64,000 bases of DNA. It comes from Glaciihabitans sp. (GTDB lineage Bacteria > Actinomycetota > Actinomycetes > Actinomycetales > Microbacteriaceae). The notes under the pieces are model-generated. The model worked only from the letters and a program-made list of their open reading frames with translations, did no database searches and was not told the origin of the DNA. Numbering within the stretch: the first letter of the stretch is position 1; each line of letters opens with the position of its first letter. Shown here piece by piece: positions 6,958 to 36,138 of the stretch. Location: the NCBI GenBank assembly GCA_025463785.1, contig JAODBD010000003.1, positions 124,001-188,000 of the forward strand. Reading direction: 5' to 3'. The position numbers were made by a program, and so were the translations under genes.

Positions 6958-8076
6958 ATGACCGTTCTCACTGCCGAACTGCTCGAACGAATCCGCTCCA
7001 GGGCAGCGGGCTATGACCGCGACAACGCCTTTTTCTTCGAAGACCTGGCCGAGCTTCGGGATGCCGGATACCTCGCCCCGCGCTCGCTGCTCGAGACCGC
7101 GCGTGACCAGCGGTTGCTCGCCGCCTACGCCCCGGCGACCGCCCTCGGCATCAACATGCACCTGGTCTGGACCGGTGTCGCGCGCGTGCTCTCCGAGCGC
7201 GGGGACGACTCGCTCGACTGGGTGTTGGCGGATGCCACGGCCGGCGAATTGTTCGCCTTCGGAAACAGCGAGCCCGGCAACGATCTCGTGCTGTTCGACT
7301 CGCTGACATCGGCGGTGCCGGGTGCCGACGATTCGTATGCGTTCACGGGCACCAAGATCTTTACCTCGCTGGCGCCAGCCTGGACGCGGCTCGGCATCTT
7401 CGGTCGCGACGACTCCGACCCGGACGACCCCAAACTCGTGCACGGTTTCCTCACGCGCGAGACGCCCGGGTGGAAGTCGCTCGATGACTGGGACACGCTC
7501 GGGATGCGCGCGACGCAGAGCCACACGACGGTACTCGAGGGCGCAGTGGTACCCGCTGCGCGGATCGCTCGCGTACTGCCGGTTGGGCCAAGCGGCGACG
7601 TGTTCATCTTCGGGATCTTCGCGAACTTCCTGCTGCTCATCGCATCCGTCTATGCGGGCGTTGCTGACCGCGCGCTCGAACTTGGCGTCGAAGCAGTGCA
7701 GCGTCGCACGTCGCTCAAGAACGACGGGGCGGCGTACAGCCAGGATCCGGATATGCGCTGGCGGGTCGCGGATGCCGCTCTCGCACTCGACGCGCTCGCC
7801 CCGCAGATCGAGACACTTGCTGCCGATGTCGATGGCCTCGTGAACCACGGCGCAGGCTGGTTCCGCAAGCTGACGGGCGTCAAGCACCGCGCGACGGAGG
7901 CGGCGCGCTACATCGTCGATCAGTCGGCCCGGGTCGCGGGCGGCGGTGGATACCGCAACTCGTCGGAGCTGGCACGGCTTCAGCGCGACGTGCTTGCCGG
8001 GATTTACCACCCGAGCGATACGGAGTCCGTGCACAACACGGTGGCCACGAATCTTCTGGGCGCGCTGGAGCTATGA
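6958..8076 (+). CDS. Acyl-CoA dehydrogenase-like flavoprotein
   Basis: 372 residues with acyl-CoA dehydrogenase architecture: helical N-terminal domain (1-115), beta domain with FTGTKIFTSLAPAWTRLGIFG near 125 and RATQSHTTVLEGAVVP near 185, and helical C-terminal domain ending AGGGGYRNSSELARLQRDVLAG. The last block matches the flavin-contact region. A clear catalytic glutamate is not obvious to me, so it could be a flavin-dependent monooxygenase or other ACAD-fold enzyme rather than a beta-oxidation dehydrogenase. Co-directional with DoxX (9-nt gap). A hairpin terminator starts right at its stop codon. Confidence 0.82.
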   Translation: MTVLTAELLERIRSRAAGYDRDNAFFFEDLAELRDAGYLAPRSLLETARDQRLLAAYAPATALGINMHLVWTGVARVLSERGDDSLDWVLADATAGELFAFGNSEPGNDLVLFDSLTSAVPGADDSYAFTGTKIFTSLAPAWTRLGIFGRDDSDPDDPKLVHGFLTRETPGWKSLDDWDTLGMRATQSHTTVLEGAVVPAARIARVLPVGPSGDVFIFGIFANFLLLIASVYAGVADRALELGVEAVQRRTSLKNDGAAYSQDPDMRWRVADAALALDALAPQIETLAADVDGLVNHGAGWFRKLTGVKHRATEAARYIVDQSARVAGGGGYRNSSELARLQRDVLAGIYHPSDTESVHNTVATNLLGALEL

Positions 8077-8100
8077 GAAAAGGCGATTTCTCGCCTTTTC
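8077..8100 (+). terminator. Rho-independent-like terminator after the ACAD-like gene
   Basis: Perfect 10-bp stem GAAAAGGCGA / TCGCCTTTTC with a 4-nt loop (TTTC), 1 nt after the stop codon. The 3' arm itself supplies the CTTTTC pyrimidine run. Confidence 0.8.
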
Positions 8101-8175
8101 CGCGACGCCAGCGCCGTCGGCCGTCCCGGTCGGCGGGACTCAGCGCGACACGCTCAGCTCCCCGCCCCAGGCTCG

Positions 8176-8252
8176 TAACTCATGCTGGCACGGGGCGGCT
8201 GATGCCTTGTGGCGGCGAGTCGCACTACGCCGTCCCGATCCAGCATGAGTTG
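8176..8252. repeat. Palindromic intergenic element, copy A
   Basis: 77-bp element bounded by inverted arms: CGTAACTCATGCTGG at 8174-8188 and CCAGCATGAGTTGCG at 8240-8254 (one mismatch). The same ends and nearly the same span occur in copy B at 36.0 kb, with a different middle. It lies in the non-coding 8101-8380 interval, where I see no supported gene. Confidence 0.7.
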
Positions 8253-8380
8253 CGCGCATCTTCGCGGCGCCCTTACCCGGGGTGGGCCCGGCGGGTTGGC
8301 CGCCGGCGGAGAGACCGAGCAGCCCAACGTCCTCAACGCCGCCGCCCGCGGGACACCCACTTGACCCCGTGCCATGTCTA

Positions 8381-22007: not shown

Positions 22008-22034
22008 CAGTCAATTTCCCTTTCTGCAATTTCG

Positions 22035-22092
22035 CGAGTTGCCCACATTGGTCGGGTCGTTCGCGTAAAACACGACAAAAGTGGGCAACTCG
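22035..22092. repeat. Hairpin element between rhaI and rhaEW
   Basis: Perfect 12-bp inverted arms CGAGTTGCCCAC (22035-22046) and GTGGGCAACTCG (22081-22092), extended inward by partly matching bases. It fills most of the 119-bp gap. It could be a mobile palindrome or an mRNA processing/stability hairpin; no T-run follows. Confidence 0.7.
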
Positions 22093-22126
22093 GGAGGTGT
22101 GGATGTGCGAACGGACGGGACGCGCA

Positions 22127-35962: not shown

Positions 35963-36031
35963 CCGGCTGCCACCCAGCTGCCGTGCCTCCACCGCGTAGC
36001 CGCCCCGCTGCCGTGCCGCCGCCGTGTCGCA

Positions 36032-36107
36032 TAACTCATGCTGGATACGGGGTTCCGGGGTCGACACGCCGCGCCAGGGCACTTTAGCCGGGTGCTGGCA
36101 TGAGTTA
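36032..36107. repeat. Palindromic intergenic element, copy B
   Basis: 76-bp element with ends TAACTCATGC (36032) and GCATGAGTTA (36098-36107). The first ~19 bp nearly match copy A at 8.2 kb; the centre differs. It sits in the 223-bp convergent gap 35963-36185, which also holds an imperfect direct repeat (GCTGCCGTGCC...) at ~35988-36030 and no supported gene. Confidence 0.7.
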
Positions 36108-36138
36108 CGCACGAGAGAGAGCTGTGCTCCGGGAGCTT

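Follow-up and report, generated by a model that had tools for sequence, protein, structure and literature searches.

What is the palindromic DNA that occurs twice, at almost the same length, in the 64-kb window (the whole stretch of DNA analysed here)? The first-pass annotation had read the two copies as a REP/MITE-like mobile or RNA-level element, with conserved inverted ends and an unrelated centre, rather than as two unrelated terminators. Copy A occupies positions 8171 to 8257 on the minus strand and consists of two inverted half-sites, GCTCGTAACTCATGCTG (8171 to 8187, plus strand) and CAGCATGAGTTGCGCGC (8241 to 8257, minus strand), both defined by the sequence and the alignment consensus, with a central motif that sequence and alignment place on the minus strand (8213 to 8222; CGACTCGCCG, family form CRACACGCCG). 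Copy B, recognized from the sequence, the genome-wide pattern, the alignment and a sequence model, spans 36027 to 36112 on the plus strand. Its half-sites, read from the sequence, are TCGCATAACTCATGCTG (36027 to 36043, plus) and TGGCATGAGTTACGCAC (36096 to 36112, minus), and its central motif CGACACGCCG (36062 to 36071; sequence and alignment) lies on the plus strand, so that the motif is oppositely oriented in the two copies. The ends recur at 36.0 kb as had been described, the lengths of A and B are equal within 1 bp, and the terminal repeat extends about 6 bp further on each side than previously recorded. The centre is unrelated only in part: the spacers are indeed variable, but CRACACGCCG is common to all copies, 20 bp inside one end. 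With up to two mismatches, AACTCATGCTGG has 10 matches in the window, a count reached by none of 100 shuffles.

Two other repeats occur in the window. Between the upstream gene and copy A, at 8060-8137, lies another dispersed repeat, about 77 bp long and unrelated to the palindrome; it is terminator-like and contains GAAAAGGCGATTTCTCGCCTTTTC, with further copies in the host genome and in four congeners (79-87% identity). At 22032-22095, a 64-bp inverted repeat shows the half-sites in reversed order (GAGTTGCCCAC...GTGGGCAACTC) and possibly represents another element type.

The host genome (G000; 3.3 Mb in 15 contigs) was searched with the pattern CTCATGC-N46..64-GCATGAG, which retrieves 15 pairs genome-wide and none in the reversed-pattern control. 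All 15 strict copies measure 70-71 bp, though 60-78 bp (a 19-bp range) was permitted, and they comprise 14 distinct sequences. Their alignment reveals three conserved blocks amid variable spacers, in the order half-site GYNCRYAACTCATGC, 20 variable bases, CRACACGCCG, 26 or 27 variable bases and inverted half-site. A sequence model derived from this alignment (R1) recovers about 10 additional degenerate copies in the same genome, which differ in their half-site letters (AACTCCTG, AACTCCGG) and include a second length class, longer by about 10 bp. Dispersed copies are often located between convergent genes or directly after stop codons, as exemplified by copy B and L052. The first-pass annotation had staked its reading on A and B not being the only two copies genome-wide; at least 15 exist, and they form a dispersed REP-like family rather than a pair of unrelated terminators. 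The description as dispersed, REP-like and probably mobile is retained, and that as a MITE with a classical transposase is not: no associated classical transposase was found, and the linked gene encodes an AbiEi-like/EDxHD nuclease. No recent transposition event is seen, because the spacers of own-genome copies are mostly unrelated, and the only identical pair of elements in the host genome is a local tandem duplication.

Local rearrangements were also recorded. In L043 (4786-5034; G000:C1:25785-26033), two identical complete elements lie 175 bp apart in a tandem duplication that includes flanking DNA, and in L049 (4931-5104; G000:C9:433930-434103), three tandem repeats of an element's left half, with a 43-bp period, adjoin one complete element.

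Beyond the host, the element family is present in a minority of Microbacteriaceae. Relaxed ends (CATAACTC..GAGTTATG) yield 6-25 copies in 6/150 family genomes and a single copy in a seventh (control, 0), and elements of this type were not found in most of the 150. The strict pattern, applied to 400 family genomes, gave one match outside the host genome, in G018, which was rejected as a family member: it lies within coding sequence and lacks the outer repeat. The view that the element is private to the host species was likewise abandoned; model R1 and the broader CATAACTC pattern find relatives, and the first pattern was too narrow. A viral-contig match (L042), in AT-rich phage coding sequence, was dismissed as chance. 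Interpretation as attC-like integron sites was dropped too, the helical lengths being constant, cassette arrays absent and no integrase seen. Rfam, NCBIfam and PADLOC provided no better label.

Many element pairs are about 1.1 kb apart, and the intervening gene is identical in kind each time. Its product, of about 290 amino acids, combines an N-terminal AbiEi-like winged helix with a C-terminal Vsr/I-Bth0305I-like (EDxHD) nuclease; in the host genome, the bracketed gene lies outside the window (C9:537225-538085). The gene stands between two elements in 6/6 multi-copy genomes examined, and these six fall among the 13/150 genomes with a close homologue of the nuclease gene (E < 1e-56). The chance that a random 6/150 would all be within the 13 is about 1e-7 (C(13,6)/C(150,6)), a figure to be taken as a guide only, since the cut-off was chosen after the data had been seen and the genomes are related, which inflates such co-occurrence through shared ancestry. 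A scan of GTDB genomes supplied 80 named loci (Cryobacterium, Microbacterium, Glaciihabitans, Lacisediminihabitans, Rhodoglobus, Salinibacterium, Plantibacter and others), where palindromes of 60-124 bp within 600 bp of the gene were compared with 380 control windows. At a score of at least 10, a palindrome is present upstream in 83% and downstream in 91% of the loci, as against 17% of controls; at a score of at least 13, the values are 60%, 66% and 1.3%, respectively. The end sequences vary among loci (AACTCCTGCA, AACTCAGGA, AATTCAGTCTC, GTCGGAATTCAGG, GTCGGAAAAGCAGGCTGA, TTCACAATTCAGCAAGAA, AACTCCGGAG, ACAACGTCGGC). Left and right arms of one gene nevertheless share a 7-mer in 98% of 49 loci; the corresponding value for arms from different loci with <50% protein identity is 36%. 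The more similar the proteins, the more similar the ends (Mantel r 0.51; 0/2000 permutations), a correlation that shared ancestry also inflates. Other families of the class have matched flanks with other ends as well, such as GATCGTACTGACCCGTAT on both sides in G586. Altogether, the pairing of elements with the gene is well supported. Plasmid and phage collections gave no match and one weak match, respectively. The nuclease gene was thus not found on plasmids, and in Cryobacterium it keeps a syntenic position together with its two elements; the gene itself therefore does not jump readily.

The host genome also encodes two nuclease paralogues: the second (L365, 2445-3627) has its own, differently ended palindromes on both flanks (GGAAATTCAGGA), and for the third (L366, 2859-2925), only one of the two flanks yielded a palindrome (GTCGGAGTTTC). 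The elements flanking the nuclease homologue of G146 (L146) have ends unlike those of the host genome (AATTCAGGCTC) and the same GCGACACGCCGC core as there, so that different end types may have this core in common.

An AlphaFold model of the protein, computed from 58 aligned sequences, has a pLDDT of 94.5. Foldseek comparison with the PDB matches the AbiEi antitoxin 6y8q across most of the chain (E 4e-5), and the C-terminal part matches the catalytic domain of the homing endonuclease I-Bth0305I (3r3p, TM 0.75) as well as the NGO0050 endonuclease-like protein. Among the 58 members, Pfam assigns MTES_1575 to 53/58, DUF559 to 48/58 and AbiEi_4 to 30/58. Nuclease activity is probably retained, because the catalytic-type residues D222, E232, D234, H239 and D248, arranged in an E-x-D..H..D pattern, are invariant in all 58 sequences. 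Concerning DNA recognition, the two 23-bp inverted repeats to which AbiEi binds are 3 bp apart, and the protein bends the DNA; those of its homologue Rv2827c are 13 bp apart, i.e. one turn different, neither protein binding the sites of the other (PMC7319586). This pair offers a direct precedent for the binding mode proposed below.

Turnover of the elements between species is well supported by comparison of orthologous sites. Empty sites, which the first-pass annotation had put forward as a check, are present at the position of copy A in two congeners and at two Cryobacterium loci. In G001 and G002, the two genes around copy A lie only about 131 and 54 bp apart, respectively, and the element is absent; in G005, an element with the ends of its own lineage follows the orthologous left gene, next to a different right neighbour. 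At the first Cryobacterium locus, the element sits within an insertion of about 158-210 bp in six species; a single compact empty junction is common to nine others, and one more has the flanks without the element. On a tree of these genomes, the species with the element are scattered, so that gains, losses and interspecies exchange are inseparable. At the second locus, a single intergenic site bears, depending on the species, elements of two end types or almost nothing. The inserted segments take in 20-50 bp beyond the palindrome, and no target-site duplication is resolved in the aligned empty sites, whose flanks are too diverged. Loss of the gene is seen as well: in G211 and G423 (L302, L305), there remains a small palindrome, CATAACTCCAATTCGCGGCC(A/G)CAAATTGCAGGAGTTATG or a close variant of it, composed of one element's outer left arm and the other's outer right arm, and G436 has a decayed nuclease gene with one element.

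Several explanations have to be weighed against these data. The elements might act as RNA, namely as 3' UTR hairpins for transcript stability or termination, as the first-pass annotation had in part suggested: the inverted ends could base-pair within a transcript, copies A and B are near gene ends and some Cryobacterium copies contain long internal palindromes. The dimensions of the elements tell otherwise. In 198 distinct elements from all retrieved loci, the AAYTC..GARTT distance takes only values of about 63, 74, 84-86, 95, 106 and 117 bp, with a step of about 10.6 bp, 98% of elements no further than about 1.5 bp from a peak and the intervals in between empty. These length classes correspond to the helical repeat of B-DNA and recur inside single genomes. 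Furthermore, the half-sites do not covary: in the own-genome alignment A1, on which covariation was judged since it is unbiased (the regex set, selected for pairing, was left aside), at no variable position do the two halves of one element resemble each other more than halves taken from different elements. Rfam contains no match for the element. Helical length classes and non-covarying halves together indicate double-stranded DNA read by a helically phased pair of proteins; they fit two protein subunits on separate half-sites along one helix face and are unfit for a pairing hairpin or terminator. The RNA-level reading is thereby given up as very improbable.

Two other explanations accept a DNA element and dispense with mobility or with a dedicated partner. 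The AbiEi-like protein could be a transcription factor that represses its own gene via the upstream palindrome and runs a small regulon via the dispersed copies, which would then be immobile operators. AbiEi-family antitoxins do autoregulate through inverted repeats (PMC7319586), and the N-terminal part of the protein matches AbiEi models, but a matching element also occurs downstream of the gene in most loci, the dispersed copies often sit where genes converge or just past stop codons, site content turns over between species and the nuclease residues are invariant. We regard such a role as unlikely, if the least so of the three. Still more doubtful is the notion of host chromosome-organizing or terminator-like sites under selection, between two of which the nuclease gene happened to settle. 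It would agree with the intergenic positions, with strictly conserved ends around free spacers and with the Cryobacterium site occupied by elements with different ends in different species. Such host sites are difficult to reconcile with the bracketing of the gene in every multi-copy genome examined, with ends that change with the nuclease lineage, with the lack of any such element in most family members searched and with the copies missing from syntenic sites.

The explanation preferred here, which we consider likely, is that copies A and B are non-autonomous members of a palindromic DNA population belonging to one resident nuclease gene, in the manner of REPINs and RAYTs but with a non-HUH partner. 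Two monomers of the nuclease protein would each bind one of the inverted half-sites, both from one side of the double helix, and element lengths would come in whole helical turns for that reason. The bound monomers may bend or loop the DNA and so position the nuclease over the element, where nicking or cutting followed by repair would copy elements into further intergenic positions or between homologous loci. The nuclease gene would be mostly vertically inherited, as RAYTs are, and solo copies, scattered intergenically, come and go between species. We infer the binding of half-sites by the bracketed protein and the spread by cutting or nicking with repair, and likewise the chemistry of transposition. 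A point against is that 15-25 intact sites per genome would be dangerous to the host if the cutter were constitutively active on double strands.

More broadly, the data point to repeats of a class not yet described, associated with a nuclease and probably mobile. The pairing is described neither in the open-access papers searched nor in library models. More tentatively, and at somewhat less than even chances, this could be a separate class of mobile DNA in Actinomycetia, in which palindromes are recognized as double-stranded DNA by AbiEi-like/EDxHD nucleases and spread by homing-like repair, with no part for HUH, DDE, serine or tyrosine recombinase chemistry, the ends and the nuclease diversifying together into many specificities. 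If true, this would assign a function to a large group of orphan proteins in actinobacteria (MTES_1575/DUF559 with AbiEi-like N-termini); numerous natural pairs of enzyme and site, whose DNA specificities differ and are readable, would become available, and the persistence and spread of the repeats would be directly testable.

Comparison with known systems places the elements among several of them. Like the MITEs of DDE transposons, they are short, dispersed and intergenic, with inverted ends and empty sites; unlike them, their internal sequence is not conserved between host-genome copies, and inspection of the 15 own copies revealed no DDE transposase with the same ends, the nuclease gene being the sole gene found between two elements. 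The nuclease fold and the invariant E-x-D..H..D residues recall EDxHD (Vsr-like) homing endonucleases such as I-Bth0305I, but here the nuclease is joined to an AbiEi-like DNA-binding part, has no intron or intein and faces many intact candidate sites in its own genome; the intact elements flanking the gene left and right speak against a simple form of homing by site destruction. With AbiE type IV toxin-antitoxin systems, the protein shares its N-terminal and middle fold and the elements share paired inverted repeats as probable binding sites, for which AbiE also sets the precedent of a one-turn spacing difference (PMC7319586). The differences are the fused C-terminal nuclease, the single gene between elements and the presence of elements downstream and genome-wide; in six loci, only this one gene lies between the two elements, and no cognate AbiEii (DUF1814) toxin is found there. 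The closest parallel concerns REPINs and RAYTs, the latter being single-copy, chromosomally inherited genes, each type with its own repeat type (PMC3116915). Here too, a single-copy chromosomal gene is bracketed by palindromic repeats of the same type, and dispersed non-autonomous extragenic inverted doublets have conserved ends and a variable spacer. RAYTs, however, are HUH Y1 proteins (TnpA-REP, related to IS200/IS605 TnpA), in contrast to the AbiEi-like/EDxHD nuclease, and the half-sites of the present elements are spaced in whole helical turns, with no hairpin covariation in own-genome copies. The system works like REPIN/RAYT and is not a member, because its partner is not an HUH protein and its halves do not covary; if the proposal is true, REPIN-like repeat populations arose anew around an unrelated nuclease.
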